DNA from: Candidatus Aquidulcis sp.
Lineage (GTDB): Bacteria; Chloroflexota; Anaerolineae; UBA4142
Assembly: GCA_020723345.1 (NCBI GenBank)
Contig: DYJA01000050.1
Location: forward strand, 1 to 48,442
DNA: 48,442 nt
Reading direction: 5' to 3'
A program made the translations under genes and the position numbers. Shown here piece by piece: positions 2,173-17,680 of the stretch. Numbering within the stretch: the first letter of the stretch is position 1; each line of letters begins with the position of its first letter. Under the pieces are notes generated by a model. It did not search any database, was not told the origin of the DNA, and was given only the letters and a program-made list of their open reading frames with translations.

Positions 2173-3942
2173 TCACGCTTTCCCCAGCTTCGCTCTCTCT
2201 TCTTCCGCCACCTTCTCATCCAATTTCTTGAACAACGCTTTCGGCTCGCGCAGCGGCTGGTTCGGCGGCAACTGCGACGGCGCCCATTTCTGAGAATGCT
2301 TGCCCGGCTCGTACACGGCGGCTTGATGCGCGCGCGACGATTCCTTGAACGTTTCGATCTTGACCGCGCCGATCAGATCGCCGTCGTAGCCGAGTTGGCG
2401 ATGCAACTCGTTCGACGAGAAGGGCAGAAACGGATAGAACATCACTTTCAAGTTGTCGATGACGCGCAGCGCGACGAAAAGCGACGTTGCCGCGCGCGCG
2501 CGATCCACCTTGATCGTCTTCCACGGCTCGGTTACTTGCAAATAGACGTTCGCTTCGCGCGCGAGATCGACCGCATAGCCGATGGCTTCTTTGAAGCGCA
2601 CGCGCCCGAGCGCGTCGCCGACTGCCGTGAGCGCGGCTTCCGATTTCGCGATGAGCGCGCGATCCGCGTCCGTCAGTTCGCCGGGCGCCGGCACGCGTGC
2701 GTCGAAATTTCGGTACGTGAACGTAAGGACACGGTTGGCGAGATTGCCCCAGTTCGCGATCAGTTCGTCGTTGTTGCGGCGGACGAATTCCTTCCACGTA
2801 AATTCCGTGTCCGCAAATTCGGGCATGTTGACCGAGAGCAAAAAGCGCAGCGGATCCGGATCGTACGATTTCAAGTAATCGTTGATCCACACCGCCCAGT
2901 GTTCGGACTTGCTGAACTTGCGCCCTTCGAGATTCAGAAATTCGTTCGCGGGCACGTCGTACGGCAGCGGCAGATTTTCATCGTAACCGAGCAACAGCGC
3001 GGGCCAGATGATCGTGTGGAATGGTATATTGTCTTTGCCGACGAAATAGTACGTGCGCGCGTCGTCCGATCGCGAAGCGGTCCACCACTCTTTCCACTTG
3101 TCGGGCGTGCCGCGATTCCGCGCCCATTCAACCGACGCGGAGTAGTAGCCGATGACCGCTTCGAACCAGACGTAGATGCACTTGCCCGCGAAACCATCCA
3201 ACGGAATCGGAATGCCCCAGTCGAGATCGCGCGTGATCGCGCGTCCGTGCAAACCGCTTTGCAGCCAGTTGCGGACGAACGCAAGCACGTTCGACTTCCA
3301 ATACGCGTCCTTATCTTTGAGATAATCAAGCAGGCGCGCTTCGAACTTTGGCAGATCGAGATAAAAGTGTTCGGTCTCTTTCACGATGAGCCGATGCGTT
3401 TCGTTCGACTTTGCCAGTTTGCAGCGCGGGTTGATCAAATCCGCCGCGTCGAGCACGTTGCCGCAGTTGTCGCACTGATCGCCGCGCGCGCGCGCAAAGT
3501 GGCAGATCGGACATTCGCCGTTGATGTAGCGGTCGGGCAAAAAGCGCGCGTCGTTTTCGCAGTAGACTTGCTGCGAGGTTTCTTTGTAGAGCAATCCTTT
3601 TTGCAAAAGGCGCGTGAAGAAATCCTGCGAAATCGCCCAGTGATTTTCGGTGTCGGTGTGCGTGAACAAATCGAACGAGATGCCGAGTTTCTGCCACGCT
3701 TCGAGAAAAAGCGCGTGCGATTCTTCAAAGACCTGGCGCGGCGTTTTGCCTTCTTCGTCGGCGGTGACGGTGACGGGCGTGCCGTGCGTGTCGGAGCCGG
3801 AAACCATCAACACGTCGTTGCCGATCAAACGATTATAGCGCGCGAAAATATCCGCGGTGAGGTATGCGCCCGCGATGTGTCCGAGATGGACGGGACCGTT
3901 GGCGTAGGGCCACGCGACCGAGACGAGAATTTTTTTGTTCAT
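2173..3942 (-). CDS. metG: Methionine--tRNA ligase
   Basis: Charges tRNA-Met with methionine in the cytosol. 589 residues from ATG 3942, which has GGAG 7-8 nt upstream; an in-frame TTG at 3954 is less likely. PYANG and HLGH (residues 13-22) form the class I HIGH signature; the zinc knuckle has C144/C147 and C157/C160; KFSKS (342-346) is the KMSKS loop. The C-terminus ends after the anticodon-binding helical domain with no EMAPII-type tRNA-binding appendix, so this is the short form. A promoter, an 18-codon leader ORF and a terminator lie 130-330 nt upstream, suggesting attenuation. Confidence 0.97.
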   Translation of the reverse strand: MNKKILVSVAWPYANGPVHLGHIAGAYLTADIFARYNRLIGNDVLMVSGSDTHGTPVTVTADEEGKTPRQVFEESHALFLEAWQKLGISFDLFTHTDTENHWAISQDFFTRLLQKGLLYKETSQQVYCENDARFLPDRYINGECPICHFARARGDQCDNCGNVLDAADLINPRCKLAKSNETHRLIVKETEHFYLDLPKFEARLLDYLKDKDAYWKSNVLAFVRNWLQSGLHGRAITRDLDWGIPIPLDGFAGKCIYVWFEAVIGYYSASVEWARNRGTPDKWKEWWTASRSDDARTYYFVGKDNIPFHTIIWPALLLGYDENLPLPYDVPANEFLNLEGRKFSKSEHWAVWINDYLKSYDPDPLRFLLSVNMPEFADTEFTWKEFVRRNNDELIANWGNLANRVLTFTYRNFDARVPAPGELTDADRALIAKSEAALTAVGDALGRVRFKEAIGYAVDLAREANVYLQVTEPWKTIKVDRARAATSLFVALRVIDNLKVMFYPFLPFSSNELHRQLGYDGDLIGAVKIETFKESSRAHQAAVYEPGKHSQKWAPSQLPPNQPLREPKALFKKLDEKVAEEERAKLGKA

Positions 3943-3987
3943 TGTGAACTCCAAAGGATGTGAGACAAAGGATTGACTGTGGCGCAG

Positions 3988-4063
3988 TTCGCCACAGCCA
4001 GGATGAGGGATGAAGGGTGAAAAACGTCAGGAGAGTTTTTCTTCATCCTTCATCCTTCTGACT
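3988..4063. repeat. Degenerate inverted repeat of CATCC/TTC words
   Basis: GGATGAGGGATGAAGGGTGA (about 4001-4020) faces TTCATCCTTCATCC (about 4042-4055). It lies between the metG leader terminator and the metG start and would form a further hairpin in the leader transcript. Confidence 0.55.
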
Positions 4064-4070
4064 TTTGCCT

Positions 4071-4125
4071 TCAAATAAAAACGCCGCTTGCATCCGGGCG
4101 ACCCGTGGTCGTCCAACAGCGGCGT
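4071..4125 (-). terminator. Intrinsic terminator in the metG leader
   Basis: On the reverse strand ACGCCGCT (4118-4125) pairs with AGCGGCGT (4081-4088), with a further inner stem, followed by TTTTATTT (4073-4080). It stands between the leader ORF and metG, where an attenuator terminator would be expected. Confidence 0.8.
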
Positions 4126-4175
4126 GGCGCACCGTGATGACGCGGCAAAAACCGCGCCGCACGTTACGGTGCGCC
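4126..4175 (-). promoter_or_regulatory. Leader hairpin overlapping the end of the leader peptide
   Basis: A perfect 10-bp stem, GGCGCACCGT (4126-4135) with ACGGTGCGCC (4166-4175). Its 5' arm in the transcript includes the last codons and stop of the leader ORF. The adjacent transcript word AGCGGCG (4172-4178) is identical to the terminator 3' arm and so can compete for CGCCGCT of the terminator. Confidence 0.65.
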
Positions 4176-4220
4176 GCTCGGCATATACATCGCGAATGTA
4201 AAACCTGGATGCGCGAACAT
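4164..4220 (-). CDS. Putative 18-residue leader peptide of metG
   Basis: The reverse-strand ORF encodes MFAHPGFTFAMYMPSGAP and a TAA stop. GGAG (4227-4230) is 6 nt before the ATG and a promoter lies immediately upstream. Two Met codons (11 and 13) precede the segment that overlaps the leader hairpin. This resembles the architecture of transcription attenuators that sense amino-acid charging; that it senses Met is inference. Confidence 0.5.
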   Translation of the reverse strand: MFAHPGFTFAMYMPSGAP

Positions 4221-4239
4221 GTTGAACTCCACTGACGCT

Positions 4240-4267
4240 ATTCTATCACAAATCGCAGGAAATGCAA
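4240..4267 (-). promoter_or_regulatory. Promoter of the metG leader
   Basis: On the reverse strand TTGCAT (4262-4267), 16-nt spacer, TAGAAT (4240-4245) with an extended -10 TG one base before it. Predicted start near 4233, about 13 nt before the leader ATG. Confidence 0.7.
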
Positions 4268-4407
4268 AGTGGGGTTTGGCAATAGGCGCATAGTGATGCA
4301 GCCGGAAATCAAAAACAATCCTTCCGCGGAACTGGTTGCCGGCTTCGCCAATAGCAAATAGTTTTTCTCCGCTATCTGTGCGAATCTGTGTCCAATTGTT
4401 TTGTCCA

Positions 4408-5007
4408 TCACGGCGTCAAGCCGCGCGGACCGCGCCCGACCGTCGCGTGGCAAAACTCGCAGCGCGGCAAGATCGTCGCGCGGAAAAGAAACGCGGCGCG
4501 CTCGTCGCCGGAACGATGCGCGGGATGACAATCGGTGCAACGAATGAATGGCACAGGTTCGGGATTATAGTACGGCTTGTTGTGCATGTGATTTTCAAAC
4601 CCCGGCTGGCGAATGTGTTGCGCGTGGCATTTCAAGCACGCTTCATTCTGCAAAGGCAGAATAATCACGGCGGGTTGCTGCGCGAATCCGGTGAAATGCT
4701 TGAACGCGTTGCGCGCGCCAAACGCCAAAACCGCCGTCCGTCCAATCACACCTTCGCCGACGTGACAAGCAATGCACTGAACGCCTTGCTTACGAAAGTG
4801 GAATGCTGCCAAGTCTTCCGCCGATTGCTGCTCGACCGCGCGCAGATACCGCGCGAGATACGTCATCTCCGGTTCGGTGTGACACGACACGCAGAATTCG
4901 TTCGCCTGTTCCTGGTGCGAAACGTACAGCACGCTGACGGCGAGCGCGATCACGACGATGCCCGCGCCGAGCGCGAGCCAGCGCGTCGGAGCGTTCAACC
5001 CTTGCAT
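4408..5007 (-). CDS. Membrane-anchored pentaheme cytochrome c (NapC/NirT/NrfH-like)
   Basis: 199 residues with an N-terminal membrane segment (about 10-30) followed by five CXXCH heme sites: CVSCH, CIACH, CLKCH, CTDCH and CEFCH. This matches the quinol-dehydrogenase type of multiheme cytochrome that passes electrons to a periplasmic or extracellular reductase. No partner reductase is encoded next to it, so the acceptor is unknown. ATG 5007 lies inside a palindromic repeat and has no good ribosome site; a TTG at 5016 is an alternative. It follows the M32 carboxypeptidase gene on the same strand after a 36-nt gap. Confidence 0.85.
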   Translation of the reverse strand: MQGLNAPTRWLALGAGIVVIALAVSVLYVSHQEQANEFCVSCHTEPEMTYLARYLRAVEQQSAEDLAAFHFRKQGVQCIACHVGEGVIGRTAVLAFGARNAFKHFTGFAQQPAVIILPLQNEACLKCHAQHIRQPGFENHMHNKPYYNPEPVPFIRCTDCHPAHRSGDERAAFLFRATILPRCEFCHATVGRGPRGLTP

Positions 5008-5033
5008 CGCCCGCAAGGGCAGGTGTTGAACGC
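4991..5033. repeat. Palindrome covering the cytochrome start codon
   Basis: GCGTTCAAC (4991-4999) pairs with GTTGAACGC (5025-5033), and CCCTTGC with GCAAGGG inside it. The ATG of the cytochrome gene (5005-5007) is within the element, so its first residues are repeat-encoded. Confidence 0.75.
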
Positions 5034-5043
5034 CCCGACAAAA

Positions 5044-6549
5044 TCACACGCCATAAATTTCCCCGAATTTTTTCTTCAAGTACGCGACGTACGAACGCGC
5101 ATGCAGCGGCTCGCCGGTCACGCGCCGCGCGAGTTCGTCGAGCGTGAACTTGCGACCGTGTGTGTGAATATTCGCCCGTAGCCAGTTTAACAACTCGCCG
5201 TACTCGCCGCGCGCGATCTGTTCCGGGAGCGCCGGAAGGTCGCGCACCACTTTGTCGTACAACTGCGCCGCGAACATCGAGCCGAGCAAGTACGTCGCAA
5301 AGTATCCCAGGTCGCCGTACGACCAGTGGACATCCTGCAAACAACCTTGCGCGTCGTTCGGCGGAACGACGCCGAGGTACTCTTTTATCTTGGCGTTCCA
5401 CGCGTCCGGCACGTCAGCCGCTCTCAATTTGCGTTCGACGAGCGCGTTCTCGATTTCAAAGCGTAGCATGATGTGCAAGCCGTACGTCACCTCGTCCGCT
5501 TCGACGCGGATCAGCGACGGCGCAACTTTGTTGATCGCGCGATAGAACGATTCGACGTTTTGATCGGCGAGTTGCGCGGGAAAGATCTCGCGCAAGCGCG
5601 GAAACCAAAACTGCCAAAAGCCGCGGCTGCGCCCGACGACGTTTTCCCACATGCGCGATTGCGATTCGTGGACGCCGAGCGACGCCGCGCCGCCGAGGGG
5701 CGTGCGTTCCAACTCCGCGCGATAGCCCATGTCGTACAGCGCGTGCCCGGTTTCGTGAATCGTGCCAAAGAGCATCGTCGGCAAGAAATTCTTGGCGACG
5801 CGCGTCGTGATCCGTACGTCGTCCAGCCCAAAGCCGGTCGTGAACGGATGCGGCGCTTTGTCCTGTCGCCCGCGCGCAAAATCGAACCCGATGCGCTTGA
5901 TCACCTCGACGCCGAAATCCCACTGCTTTTGCTCGTCGTACTCGCGATGCAACACCGCGGCGTCCACCGCATCCGCCTTGCGCGCGATTTGCTGGACGAG
6001 CGCGACGATCTCTTTTCGCAGCGGCGTGAAAATCGCCTCGACCTGCGCGGTCGTCATTTCCGGCTCGTACTGATCGAGCAGCGCGTCGTAAATGCGATCC
6101 GAATAGCCAAGATGATCCGCGAGTTGAATCCGCAATTCGACGTTCTTTGCGAGGTACGGCTGGAACAATTTGAAATTCGATTCCGCGCGCGCGTTGTGCC
6201 ACGCTTCGAACGCGAGCGCCGCGGCGCGCGCCATCTCTTCGACGAGCGCGGGCGGCACGCGTTTGGCTTTAGCGTACTCGCGCTTGGTCACGCGGATCAT
6301 GCCGGCGTCGTCGGAATCGTACGGCAGTTGCGCGGCGTACTCCGCCAGATCGTTCAATAGCGCGCCGTTTTCGTCCGCGATGAAATGTTCGTGCGCCAAT
6401 TTCTCCAGCGTCGCGAGTTGTTCGGCGCGCGCGGACGCGCCGCGCGGCGGCATGTACGTTTGCTGATCCCAACTCAGCACCGCCGCTGCCCGTCCCAAAT
6501 CGTCGACGAGCGCAAAGCGTTTTTTCAGTTCGTCTAGTTTTTCCCTCAT
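5044..6549 (-). CDS. Carboxypeptidase Taq-type metallopeptidase (M32)
   Basis: 501 residues, the usual length for M32 thermostable carboxypeptidases that remove C-terminal residues in the cytosol. The zinc motif HETGH is at 265-269, preceded by LFGTI and followed by ALYDMG as in the family; the C-terminal part with YGDLGYFATY and LGSMFAAQLY is also typical. ATG 6549 is chosen because AGAGGG precedes it and it overlaps the stop of the upstream gene as ATGA; the longer open frame upstream is a shadow of that gene. Translationally coupled to the upstream membrane protein. Confidence 0.95.
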   Translation of the reverse strand: MREKLDELKKRFALVDDLGRAAAVLSWDQQTYMPPRGASARAEQLATLEKLAHEHFIADENGALLNDLAEYAAQLPYDSDDAGMIRVTKREYAKAKRVPPALVEEMARAAALAFEAWHNARAESNFKLFQPYLAKNVELRIQLADHLGYSDRIYDALLDQYEPEMTTAQVEAIFTPLRKEIVALVQQIARKADAVDAAVLHREYDEQKQWDFGVEVIKRIGFDFARGRQDKAPHPFTTGFGLDDVRITTRVAKNFLPTMLFGTIHETGHALYDMGYRAELERTPLGGAASLGVHESQSRMWENVVGRSRGFWQFWFPRLREIFPAQLADQNVESFYRAINKVAPSLIRVEADEVTYGLHIMLRFEIENALVERKLRAADVPDAWNAKIKEYLGVVPPNDAQGCLQDVHWSYGDLGYFATYLLGSMFAAQLYDKVVRDLPALPEQIARGEYGELLNWLRANIHTHGRKFTLDELARRVTGEPLHARSYVAYLKKKFGEIYGV

Positions 6550-14035: not shown

Positions 14036-14080
14036 GGACAAATCTCGTGGTGAGCGAAGCGAATCCATGGAAATTTGTCC
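14036..14080. repeat. Palindrome GGACAAAT/ATTTGTCC at the end of the AhpD-like gene
   Basis: GGACAAAT (14036-14043) pairs with ATTTGTCC (14073-14080). The interior has GAGCGAAGCG, a word shared with other repeats here. The stop codon TAG of the AhpD-like gene (14080-14082) overlaps the end of the arm. Confidence 0.75.
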
Positions 14081-14337
14081 TACGTGCATCCGCACCCACC
14101 AGTGTTTTCGCTCGCCGTCGCAGGAACGGAACCATTCAGCGTCGCGATGAACTTGTCCATCTTCGATGCCGCGCCTTTCCGCACCATTCTCCCCGTTTCG
14201 ATTGCTTCGGCGATCTCCTGTGGATCCGCGCCGGTTTCCCGCGCCATTGCCGTCGTCGACTGCAAACACGGCTGACAGTTGGCGGAGATTGCCGCGCCGA
14301 CCGCGATCAATGCCCGTGTTCGATCATCCAGTTTCAT
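14080..14337 (-). CDS. Carboxymuconolactone decarboxylase / AhpD-like protein
   Basis: 85 residues. ANCQPCLQSTTAMARETGAD holds the CxxC redox pair and downstream His/Thr region of the CMD/AhpD family, and GADPQEIAEAIETGRMVRKG fits its second helix. Likely a small alkylhydroperoxidase-like or thiol-disulfide protein. The C-terminus GGCGCT adds two more cysteines, which could bind metal. ATG 14337 has GGAG about 10 nt upstream. It lies downstream of the hgcAB-arsM-sigma genes on the same strand. Confidence 0.85.
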   Translation of the reverse strand: MKLDDRTRALIAVGAAISANCQPCLQSTTAMARETGADPQEIAEAIETGRMVRKGAASKMDKFIATLNGSVPATASENTGGCGCT

Positions 14338-14402
14338 AATCAAATGTCTCCTTTCCGATCTTATAGACGAGAATCAATCAGAAAAGGATACACCTTCAAA
14401 CC

Positions 14403-14449: not shown

Positions 14450-14989
14450 TCACAGCCAATCCTCCGCTTTGCAATGACTCTTCAATTTTTCCAACAGCAT
14501 CGCGCGTCCCCGGTGCAATCGGATCTTGACCGTCTCCAAACTCACGCCGAGAATCGCGGCGATCTCGCCGTTGGTCAACTCTCCCAACTCGCTGAGCGCG
14601 ACGACCGTGCGATAATTCGCCGGAAGTTTATCGACGAAATTCCGAAAGCACGCGTATCGTTCCTTTCGCATGGTGCGTTGTTCGAGCGAGAGTGGCTCGC
14701 TGATAGCCCGAAGACCATGCCACTCGTCGTTCAACGAGCAACTCTGCGCGTCTTGGCGAAACGCGGGCGCGCGCATTTTATCGATCGCGGCGTTCGTGGC
14801 GATGCGATAAATCCACGTCGAGAGTTGCGCGTCGCCTCTGAAATTCGGCAACCCCTGACTGACTTTGACGAAAACTTCCTGGGTCAGATCTTCCGCTTCG
14901 CCTGCGCCGACCAGACGCGTCAGATAACGCTGCACCTTTGGTCGAAACGTTTCGTGGATCGTCTCGAACGCAAATGGATTGCCGTTCAT
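14450..14989 (-). CDS. ECF-type RNA polymerase sigma factor
   Basis: 179 residues. Region 2 has AEDLTQEVFVKVSQGLPNFR and LSTWIYRIATNAAIDKMR; region 4 has LPANYRTVVALSELGELTNG followed by AAILGVSLETVKIRLHRGR. This is the sigma70 ECF layout with no extra domain and no adjacent anti-sigma gene. It starts 9 nt after the arsM stop, so it is likely in the same transcript as hgcAB-arsM; a role in metal stress is inference from position only. Confidence 0.95.
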   Translation of the reverse strand: MNGNPFAFETIHETFRPKVQRYLTRLVGAGEAEDLTQEVFVKVSQGLPNFRGDAQLSTWIYRIATNAAIDKMRAPAFRQDAQSCSLNDEWHGLRAISEPLSLEQRTMRKERYACFRNFVDKLPANYRTVVALSELGELTNGEIAAILGVSLETVKIRLHRGRAMLLEKLKSHCKAEDWL

Positions 14990-14998
14990 AGATTACGC

Positions 14999-15754
14999 TC
15001 ACGGCTTGCGCGCGACGAATTTCGCGCTGTACACCGGCTCCAGCGGGTTTTCGCCGCCCGCAACTTTATCGACGCCGACAAAACCGGCGGCGCGCATTTT
15101 TTCGATGTACTCTTTCTCGGTGATCGCGCCACTGACGCACGCCGCCCACGATGCTATATTCGCGCGCATGATCTCCGGCATCGGTAGGCGCGTCACCATG
15201 TCCGAGATCGCGACGCGTCCACCCGGCTTGAGCACGCGAAACGCTTCGCGAAAAACGCGATCCTTGTCCGGCGCGAGATTCACCACACAATTCGAAATGA
15301 TCACGTCGACTGAATTATCATCGACCGGCAAATTTTCCAATTCGCCGTGCCGAAATTCGACGTTCGTCGCGCCGACCTTTTGCGCGTTCGCGCGCGCGAG
15401 CGTCAGCATGTCCGTCGTCATGTCCACGCCGATCACGCGTCCGCGCGCGCCGACGCGTTTCGATGCGTACAGACAATCGAGTCCGCCGCCACTGCCGAGA
15501 TCGAGCACGGTTTCGCCCGGCTGCACCTGCGCGATTTCGAGCGGCGTGCCGCAGCCCAGCGACGTGTTGACGATGTCGTCCGGCAGCGCGTCTTTCGTCG
15601 TGAGCAAATCCGCCGGAATCACATCCGACGGCGCGCAGCAACTTGTCTCCGCACTGCTCGGCGCGCAACAACTACTCGGCTTGCCCGCGAGTTTCTGCCG
15701 CGCGATGTCCGCGTATCGCTCGCGCACTTGCTCCTTGATTTGAGTATCGTCCAT
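14999..15754 (-). CDS. arsM: Arsenite S-adenosylmethyltransferase
   Basis: 251 residues. Methylates As(III) with SAM in the cytosol. The N-terminus has two CCAPS motifs (C29-C30, C39-C40); the SAM site is VLDLGSGGGLDCL; Cys68 (LGCG), the NCVVN cysteine and the ACVSG cysteine are the arsenic-binding set of the family. ATG 15754 has GGAGG 6 nt upstream. It follows hgcB after 76 nt that hold a palindromic repeat, and precedes the ECF sigma gene. Mercury and arsenic methylation thus appear linked here. Confidence 0.96.
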   Translation of the reverse strand: MDDTQIKEQVRERYADIARQKLAGKPSSCCAPSSAETSCCAPSDVIPADLLTTKDALPDDIVNTSLGCGTPLEIAQVQPGETVLDLGSGGGLDCLYASKRVGARGRVIGVDMTTDMLTLARANAQKVGATNVEFRHGELENLPVDDNSVDVIISNCVVNLAPDKDRVFREAFRVLKPGGRVAISDMVTRLPMPEIMRANIASWAACVSGAITEKEYIEKMRAAGFVGVDKVAGGENPLEPVYSAKFVARKP

Positions 15755-15769
15755 TACAAACCTCCAAAG

Positions 15770-15812
15770 GGACACTGATAAACAAACTGAAATCTGTGTT
15801 CATCCGTGTCCA
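15770..15812. repeat. Palindrome, GGACACTGATAAAC family
   Basis: GGACACTGATAAACA faces TCTGTGTTCATCCGTGTCC. Related to the inner element at 2034-2106 and a fragment at about 4375-4404. It occupies the hgcB-arsM spacer. Confidence 0.75.
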
Positions 15813-15830
15813 ATGAATGTATATTTGTCA

Positions 15831-16097
15831 TCAACCGCAGGTGGCTTGTTGCTTGCGCGTCAACGCCGCGGCGATCATCGCGGCAGCGCAACCGACGCCG
15901 CTGTCCACTTGGATCGCGCCGAACGGACAATTGACCTGACACGCGCCACATTCCATACACGCGTCGCCGTGGACGACGTAAATCGTGCGGCTGTTTTGCG
16001 CGAACACGCCGTGCGGACAAACGTCCACGCAGATCCCGCAACCGGTACACGCTTCCGCATCGAACTTGAGAGTGTTGAGTGCAGACACGCCGACCAT
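15831..16097 (-). CDS. hgcB: HgcB, ferredoxin partner of mercury methylation
   Basis: 88 residues with two 4Fe-4S motifs, C17-x2-C20-x2-C23-x3-C27P and C47-x2-C50-x2-C53-x3-C57P. CMECGACQVNCPFGAI followed by DSGVGCAAAMI (Cys70) and a C-terminal Cys87 is the HgcB pattern rather than a generic ferredoxin. It is thought to reduce the HgcA corrinoid so that it can accept and transfer a methyl group. The start overlaps the hgcA stop: ATG 16097 (TGATG) has GGAGG 6 nt upstream, with another ATG at 16100. Confidence 0.95.
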   Translation of the reverse strand: MVGVSALNTLKFDAEACTGCGICVDVCPHGVFAQNSRTIYVVHGDACMECGACQVNCPFGAIQVDSGVGCAAAMIAAALTRKQQATCG

Positions 16098-17095
16098 CAT
16101 GCGCCTCCCAGAATTTTGATCGCCGCGCGCACAATCGTCAACGCGATGCCCGCGCCGAACAGCCAAGCCATAACGGGAATGTACGCGAATATTTCGCGCC
16201 GGACGCCCGTCCGCGAGGTGAACGTCGTCGAGCCGGTGAAATTCAGCGTGATGAACGCGGTAATCGGCGGGAGTGTCAACAGCCAGGTCAGCGCGCCAGT
16301 CGCGCGGAGCCACATCGCCGCGTTCGGATTCGACAGAAACGCGATCAGCGCGAACGGCAACGCGACGATTCCGCCGAGAATCAAGCCCTTGGTGCTGAAC
16401 GCGTGCGTCGGCAGCCAGGGCAACAGAATCGGAAAAAGAACTGTGCCTGCCAAGATTGCCGCGATGATGGCTGGCGATGATACGAATCCTCCAATCAAGT
16501 CCAGCACGATAACCACGATCAACACCGGCAGCACCGCGACCAGTTCGACCGGAATCAGAACGATGCGATCACGCAACGGGAAATGAACGCGCCGCATTTC
16601 CGGCGTGGCTTGATGCGTCTTGAGGTACTCCGGCAAATCCGTCGCGCGCACCGGACCGTATTCGATTTTGAACTGCGTCCGTTTCGTGACTAAATGCGCC
16701 GCCACGCCCGGCGCGCCGAGTTGCGGCAGAATCAACGTGCGATGATGTACGACATCCTTCAACCCGGTTGCTTCAATGCGCTGCACCAATTCGTCCGTGC
16801 CAAACGTTCCTTTGCCCGCCGCGCACCAGACGTTGATCCCGTCCGTGTCGAGCACCAAAATGTAACTGTCCCTGCCTGCCAGCGCCTCGCGCAGCGCGTC
16901 GAAACTGAGCGTATAGTTCGCGCTGACGAACACGGGCGAGTCCGCTGTGGGCTTGCCCAACGCGTACAGCCCCGGCGCGACGCGATGTCCGCTGCGATTG
17001 ATCGCCCAGCGCGCCAGAAAATGGTCCCACCGATTGCCCAACATGATCGCGCTGGTCGTCGGTCGGACAACTCGATGGTCGGTTGCTCCCGTCAT
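16097..17095 (-). CDS. hgcA: HgcA, corrinoid protein of mercury methylation
   Basis: 332 residues. Transfers a methyl group to Hg(II), forming methylmercury. The N-terminal corrinoid domain has PGLYALG and NYTLSFDALREAL and the diagnostic cap helix N88-V-W-C-A-A-G-K95, in which Cys91 is the expected lower cobalt ligand. From about residue 172 five hydrophobic segments form the membrane domain. Both halves and the length fit HgcA; a generic CO dehydrogenase corrinoid protein lacks the membrane half. AAGGAGG lies 6 nt before ATG 17095. Immediately followed by hgcB. An operator-like block shared with arsR precedes it. Confidence 0.97.
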   Translation of the reverse strand: MTGATDHRVVRPTTSAIMLGNRWDHFLARWAINRSGHRVAPGLYALGKPTADSPVFVSANYTLSFDALREALAGRDSYILVLDTDGINVWCAAGKGTFGTDELVQRIEATGLKDVVHHRTLILPQLGAPGVAAHLVTKRTQFKIEYGPVRATDLPEYLKTHQATPEMRRVHFPLRDRIVLIPVELVAVLPVLIVVIVLDLIGGFVSSPAIIAAILAGTVLFPILLPWLPTHAFSTKGLILGGIVALPFALIAFLSNPNAAMWLRATGALTWLLTLPPITAFITLNFTGSTTFTSRTGVRREIFAYIPVMAWLFGAGIALTIVRAAIKILGGA

Positions 17096-17117
17096 CTGCC
17101 GCCTCCTTGCAAAGAGA

Positions 17118-17145
17118 TATTGACGTATTTAAGTTTGTCTATATG
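17118..17145 (-). promoter_or_regulatory. Operator-like block upstream of hgcA
   Basis: A 28-nt block, ATATTGACG...TGTCTATAT on the plus strand, 24/28 identical and in the same orientation as the block that overlaps the arsR promoter (17627-17654). It starts 23 nt before the hgcA start codon. The dyad is less perfect than in the arsR copy. Likely binding site of the ArsR protein; this is inference. Confidence 0.75.
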
Positions 17146-17255: not shown

Positions 17256-17591
17256 CTAGGCGCGCGCCTTGCGCGCTGACTTGGGAAGCCGAATGCTAAG
17301 CAACTTGCCGGGCGCGAATTTTGCCCACAACATTCCGCAGCACTCGTCCACGTTTTCGGCGTTGAGCGAGTACAAAATCTCCTTGCCCTCGCGCCGACTG
17401 TTGACCAGCCCTTCGTGCTTGAGAATCTTGAGATGGTGCGAGATCGTCGGTTGGGAAGAACGTTCGAACGCGGCGACGATGTCGTTGACGCGCAGCTCGC
17501 CTTTCTTCTGAAGCATTTGCAGTATATCTTGCCGCGTCGCGTCGCCCAACGCGCGGCAGAACGCGACGCAATCAATTCCAGCCACAGTCAC
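17256..17591 (-). CDS. ArsR/SmtB-family metalloregulator
   Basis: 111 residues with the winged-helix core LGDATRQDILQMLQKKGELR, SSQPTISHHLKILKHEGLV and the wing RREGKEILYSL. Cysteines at 8, 12 and the pair 84-85 (VDECCG) could bind arsenite, mercury or another thiophilic metal. Such regulators leave DNA when metal binds. GTG 17591 or GTG 17585 is the start; the second has GAAGG 5-6 nt upstream. First gene of the metal island, with a near-consensus promoter overlapped by a dyad. Confidence 0.95.
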   Translation of the reverse strand: MTVAGIDCVAFCRALGDATRQDILQMLQKKGELRVNDIVAAFERSSQPTISHHLKILKHEGLVNSRREGKEILYSLNAENVDECCGMLWAKFAPGKLLSIRLPKSARKARA

Positions 17592-17625: not shown

Positions 17626-17647
17626 CATATTGACGAATTTCAATATG
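17626..17647 (-). promoter_or_regulatory. Operator dyad at the arsR start site
   Basis: CATATTGA (17626-17633) and TCAATATG (17640-17647), a perfect 8-bp dyad with a 6-nt centre, directly downstream of the arsR -10 box. This layout fits autorepression. Confidence 0.85.
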
Positions 17648-17652
17648 TCTAT

Positions 17653-17680
17653 ATTATACCACAGAAAATCAATTTGTCAA
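17653..17680 (-). promoter_or_regulatory. arsR promoter
   Basis: On the reverse strand TTGACA (17675-17680), 16-nt spacer, TATAAT (17653-17658), with an extended -10 TG. Both hexamers are perfect consensus. The operator dyad begins 6 nt downstream. Confidence 0.9.

Follow-up and report, generated by a model that had tools for sequence, protein, structure and literature searches.

An hgcAB pair between arsR and arsM in a Chloroflexota genome, with matched operator-like sequences and relatives that carry the same locus without hgcAB

The locus described here bears on two general questions, namely why hgcAB is retained by bacteria and what switches it on. In Pseudodesulfovibrio mercurii ND132, an ArsR-like regulator is reported to control hgcAB (PMC10349881) and at least one cysteine in the HgcB tail is required for full activity, where one suffices (PMC7305189). 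Chloroflexota, notably the Anaerolineales, are published carriers of hgcA (PMC7438021, PMC10469668), and the latter have been named a major carrier in anoxic marine water (PMC10469668); because these carriers were already published, the gene pair as such is not new. The proximity of hgcAB to arsR and arsM was likewise described before, by McDaniel et al. 2020 (PMC7438021).

The window analysed here, i.e. the whole stretch of 48,442 nucleotides (positions 1 to 48,442) from contig DYJA01000050.1 of Candidatus Aquidulcis sp., contains the gene order arsR-hgcA-hgcB-arsM behind rsmG. The preliminary description of the window had reported a complete hgcAB pair, whose coordinates and details hold, with both genes on the minus strand; it overlooked the arsR-hgcAB-arsM unit, the operators and the existence of relatives without hgcAB. 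The features are, in the direction of reading:

17653-17680, minus strand: arsR promoter, perfect sigma-70-type (TTGACA-16-TATAAT, extended -10; 12/12)
17627-17654, minus strand: operator-like palindrome 1, ATATAGAC-N12-GTCAATAT, 28 bases, overlapping the arsR -10 box
17256-17591, minus strand: arsR, ArsR/SmtB-family regulator, 111 aa
17159-17178, minus strand: terminator-like hairpin between arsR and hgcA
17117-17144, minus strand: operator-like palindrome 2, half-sites and spacing as in palindrome 1, about 21 bases upstream of the hgcA start
16097-17095, minus strand: hgcA, corrinoid protein with membrane domain, 332 aa
15831-16100, minus strand: hgcB, two-cluster ferredoxin, overlapping the hgcA stop (ATGA/TGATG)
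14999-15754, minus strand: arsM, arsenite methyltransferase, 76 bases after hgcB
14450-14989, minus strand: ECF sigma factor gene, adjoining arsM
14080-14343, minus strand: gene for a small AhpD/carboxymuconolactone-decarboxylase protein, after the sigma factor

HgcA starts at an ATG behind AAGGAGG. In the profile search that had been proposed as a check, both proteins scored above the equivalog cut-offs: HgcA with 437 bits against 275 (NCBIfam NF040863, E 3.6e-131) and HgcB with 110 bits against 99 (NF040864, E 3.7e-32), the latter by a margin of just 11 bits. The characteristic cap helix N(V/I)WCAAGK with its cobalt-ligand cysteine is present as NVWCAAGK with Cys91, as the preliminary description had read it; Cys91 is kept in 30/30 aligned HgcA proteins, in which N88, V89, W90, A92, G94 and G96 are invariant as well. 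The AlphaFold model (pLDDT 86.7) combines a corrinoid domain with five long membrane-type helices (about residues 180-202, 206-227, 233-254, 261-284 and 295-330), which agrees with the five C-terminal membrane segments claimed earlier, and among solved structures it matches best the published HgcAB model 9a0b and corrinoid iron-sulfur proteins. HgcB comprises 88 or 89 aa, depending on whether translation starts at the ATG at 16097 or at 16100, and the TGATG overlap with hgcA that had been noted is real. The protein possesses what is required of an HgcB (PMC7305189), namely two CxxCxxCxxxCP cluster motifs (CTGCGICVDVCP and CMECGACQVNCP), an equivalent of Cys73 (the cysteine of GVGC, which is residue 70 if the protein has 88 aa) and one or more tail cysteines (here a single one, Cys87), so that the ferredoxin motifs, Cys70 and Cys87 of the preliminary description were all recovered. 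By these sequence characteristics the pair is a genuine hgcAB of the Anaerolineales type, a further member of a known family, and given its intact residues it looks functional. In another Chloroflexota genome (L114/L006, G021:C80) the HgcB tail is about 65 residues long and contains CC pairs repeatedly (SPCCENDASPCCENDASPCC...), a cysteine number far above the usual one to four.

Kinship was derived from a quick tree of 84 rows, which did not include methanogen HgcA and gave warnings on some long branches elsewhere. The HgcA of the window lies in a 24-row clade of Chloroflexota only (support 98), adjoining the sequences of UBA4826 and G003. The corrinoid iron-sulfur proteins fall outside the HgcA clade (support 100); the tree that had been suggested as a check therefore separates HgcA, at full support, from the corrinoid proteins of the acetyl-CoA pathway. 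The nearest HgcA comes from the Anaerolineales bacterium UBA4826, which belongs to the same family as the window genome, and the Chloroflexota host that had been considered probable is thereby confirmed. Archaeal and Chloroflexota HgcA reportedly cluster together. An HgcA above the cut-off was found in 22 of the 396 sampled genomes of the class and in 5/14 of the family, and the distribution is therefore patchy; a search for hgcA on plasmids gave no match in 72,556 records. A recent foreign origin of hgcAB found no support, as GC content and third-position GC resemble those of the neighbouring genes and the nearest HgcA sequences are all from Chloroflexota. Two HgcA-like proteins (L009 and L010; G031:C549 and G033:C169) carry NVWCSATGG or NVWCAATGG in place of the AAGK form, are encoded beside ferredoxins whose first cluster motif is altered (KGAGFC, KGAAFC), and constitute a deep separate branch in the tree.

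The regulator scores 85.5 bits against 55 with NF033788 and, together with five orthologues, shows CVxFC (or CVSFC) close to the N-terminal end and ECCG within the last helix, so that a family score and a candidate thiol site, as expected of an ArsR/SmtB metalloregulator, coincide. The ELCVC-type motif carried by ArsRs at several other hgc loci is absent from the aligned window protein. It is plausible that CVxFC and ECCG form a soft-metal thiol site, through which As(III), Sb(III) or Hg(II) might be sensed. The three catalytic cysteines of ArsM (310 bits against 263, NF008823) fall in the same alignment columns as those of the solved ArsM 5evj, and the orthologues retain them. In UBA4826 the sigma factor gene also adjoins arsM and the AhpD-type gene is also present; there, arsM is matched in two overlapping frames (L022:7370-7979) and must hence be frameshifted or misassembled. 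A related set of arsR, ECF sigma and AhpD-type genes occurs in the genome G012 (L165, G012:C32, ~3449-5800) without hgcAB or a close arsM, and hgcA-hgcB-arsM lies on another contig of that genome, i.e. the same gene set is reshuffled. The gap between hgcB and arsM holds at 15762-15815 the sequence GGACACGGATGAACACAGATTT, which may resemble dispersed repeats of related genomes. Between arsR and hgcA there are 160 bases that include the terminator-like hairpin, and arsR and hgcAB may therefore be separate transcripts.

By eye, a like arsR promoter was seen in UBA4826 (G009), G001 and G007, and terminator-like hairpins between arsR and the second operator-like site were seen at orthologous loci too. 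Within the window the operator pattern occurs at two places with 0 mismatches and nowhere else at three or fewer, where shuffling predicts 0.06 matches, a figure that is optimistic as the sites had been recognised by eye before they were counted. The 6.34-Mb genome contains no third site that matches with at most two mismatches. At the orthologous loci the best or near-best operator-like sites fall at the arsR promoter and within the leader of whichever gene follows arsR; the leader site of UBA4826 (five mismatches) and the arsR-promoter site of G003 (degenerate) tie with chance matches. Independent support for the operators comes from the genome-wide absence of others and from the relatives' sites at the same two places. 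A larger ArsR regulon was considered and rejected: the 20 genome matches at three mismatches are scattered, and constitute a moderate excess over the 8 of a reversed-pattern control. In the literature we found no report of paired operators, or of a polymorphism for presence of hgcAB, at such a locus.

The order rsmG-arsR-hgcA-hgcB-arsM is common to three genera, that of the window genome and two others of its family (UBA4826 and G003). In two further family members (L113, L024) hgcA-hgcB-arsM resides elsewhere, with arsM more distant. The locus of G001, which belongs to the same genus as the window genome, is collinear for rsmG, arsR (92% over 93 aa) and arsM (83%) and lacks hgcAB; what is the hgcA leader in the window, with its hairpin and operator, there runs straight into arsM. 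Genomes of two other genera (G007, G005) show the same arrangement, with arsR followed directly by arsM behind the same kind of leader and without hgcAB, and in a second genome of the same genus (G002) arsM directly follows rsmG, without arsR and hgcAB. HgcA was not found elsewhere in G001, G002, G005 and G007, the last three of which are incomplete. Comparison of these loci suggests that arsR and arsM are the core retained at the locus and that hgcAB is its dispensable or optional part.

Profile searches of the genome recovered CODH/ACS alpha/beta (954 bits against 800) and the delta and gamma subunits, and the CODH catalytic subunit at 477 bits, just below the cut-off of 478; the CODH/ACS subunits make a supply of methyl-tetrahydrofolate plausible. 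Subunits I and II of an aa3-type cytochrome c oxidase also score above their cut-offs, and as 9/14 family members encode such oxidases, contamination is a less likely source. The host may thus tolerate or use oxygen, to judge from an aa3-type oxidase beside Wood-Ljungdahl enzymes. Another contig of the genome (G000:C60) carries a MerB-family gene (L175:1186-1938, plus strand) whose reading frame contains two TGA codons (126 and 201, in the contexts GERVYAA-U-GIDAIATPF and AF-U-KNSIFFW), presumably at the places of the two catalytic cysteines of MerB. The genome also has a tRNA-Sec, and the gene scores 44 bits, far below the 140 of the known Sec form SaoL. It possibly encodes a MerB-like organomercury lyase with two selenocysteines, in a cell that also carries hgcAB, or it may be a decayed gene.

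Gene identity, gene order, the paired operator-like sequences and the presence or absence of hgcAB are direct observations; from these we infer activity, inducer and co-transcription, and we arrive at a genuine HgcAB within an ArsR-switched mercury and arsenic methylation unit, in which hgcAB is dispensable, as the best explanation (probability roughly 0.8). As in other members of the family, HgcA would hold a corrinoid via Cys91, be methylated, probably by methyl-tetrahydrofolate from the host's own Wood-Ljungdahl pathway, and pass the methyl group to Hg(II), while HgcB would re-reduce the cobalt and handle mercury via its cysteines. The genes hgcA, hgcB and arsM are probably expressed together from a leader with an ArsR-type operator, of which a second copy lies over the arsR promoter. 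ArsR probably represses both arsR and the methylation unit through its conserved vicinal cysteines, and repression would be lifted on the arrival of a thiol-binding metal or metalloid.

Other explanations differ in which part of this they contest. That the protein is not HgcA at all, and instead a corrinoid protein of another pathway (the Wood-Ljungdahl gamma subunit or an HgcAB-like fusion), has practically no probability left: the corrinoid domain does share some 30% identity with the genome's own gamma subunit, yet the gamma-subunit model yields 72 bits against a cut-off of 306, far from the HgcA score given above, and a distinct true gamma subunit (541 bits) is encoded in the same genome. 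The HgcAB-like fusion model (NF043039) stays at 211 bits against 285 where two separate genes are found, and HgcA and the corrinoid iron-sulfur proteins occupy separate clades; scores and tree together rule out both identities. It is also improbable, although less so, that arsR and arsM are passengers only, with ArsR governing itself and arsM and with hgcAB expressed constitutively on its own. Most Chloroflexota hgcAB loci indeed lack such an arsM neighbour and several have other ArsR types or none, but the second operator-like site just before hgcA, the operator-bearing leader directly before arsM in relatives without hgcAB and the gene order kept in three genera all argue against this. Most likely, HgcAB is functional and is governed by an ArsR switch in common with arsM.

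The third alternative concerns history alone and does not conflict with the function proposed above: hgcAB might have entered an ancestral operon of arsR and arsM, on one or possibly several occasions, instead of having been lost from it in some lineages. Its absence at the locus in four relatives would fit such gains, as would the rsmG-ArsR-ArsM tree of seven loci, on which the presence and absence of hgcAB needs three changes and a single carrier clade is weakly rejected (p 0.042, with low branch support and a grouping that was named after the loci had been seen). Against this, the HgcA proteins of the three carriers are each other's nearest (support 98) and their genes sit at precisely one and the same place, several insertions into a single site would be a less simple assumption than several deletions, and the GC and third-position GC of hgcAB match the neighbourhood; insertion is the less likely course. 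Repeated loss is the simplest reading, and it is more likely that hgcAB goes than that it comes. Taking regulation and loss together, we would give even odds to the wider proposal that mercury methylation in this Anaerolineales family is an optional cassette of an arsenic-methylation switch, in which one ArsR with a single-locus regulon (two operators genome-wide) turns on HgcAB and ArsM together, and which lost hgcAB by clean removal on several occasions, with arsM remaining behind the same leader. If so, methylmercury formation in these bacteria would respond to arsenic, and natural pairs of close relatives with and without hgcAB would be available. With close relatives that keep this regulator, leader and arsM whether hgcAB is there or not, the proposed link between arsenic response and methylmercury formation becomes directly testable.

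Among known systems, the closest loci are those of UBA4826 (L022/G009) and G003 (L112), with HgcA proteins 78% and 72% identical to that of the window. Both share its gene order from rsmG to arsM and a similar promoter and operator layout; in UBA4826, arsM is divided between two frames and the operator that precedes hgcA is degenerate, and in G003 the palindrome at the arsR promoter is degenerate. The system of P. mercurii (D. desulfuricans) ND132 resembles the window in the corrinoid domain, the five-helix membrane domain and the cap-helix cysteine of HgcA, and in an HgcB that is a dicluster ferredoxin with Cys73 and a tail cysteine (PMC7305189). In contrast to ND132, the window has one HgcB tail cysteine instead of two, a Chloroflexota host and arsM directly downstream. 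The loci of McDaniel et al. 2020 (PMC7438021) likewise have hgcAB beside arsR, arsM, acr3 or arsC; that comparison concerns the neighbourhood alone, and the window adds to it operator-like sites that match each other, a leader in common and relatives whose corresponding site has no hgcAB.
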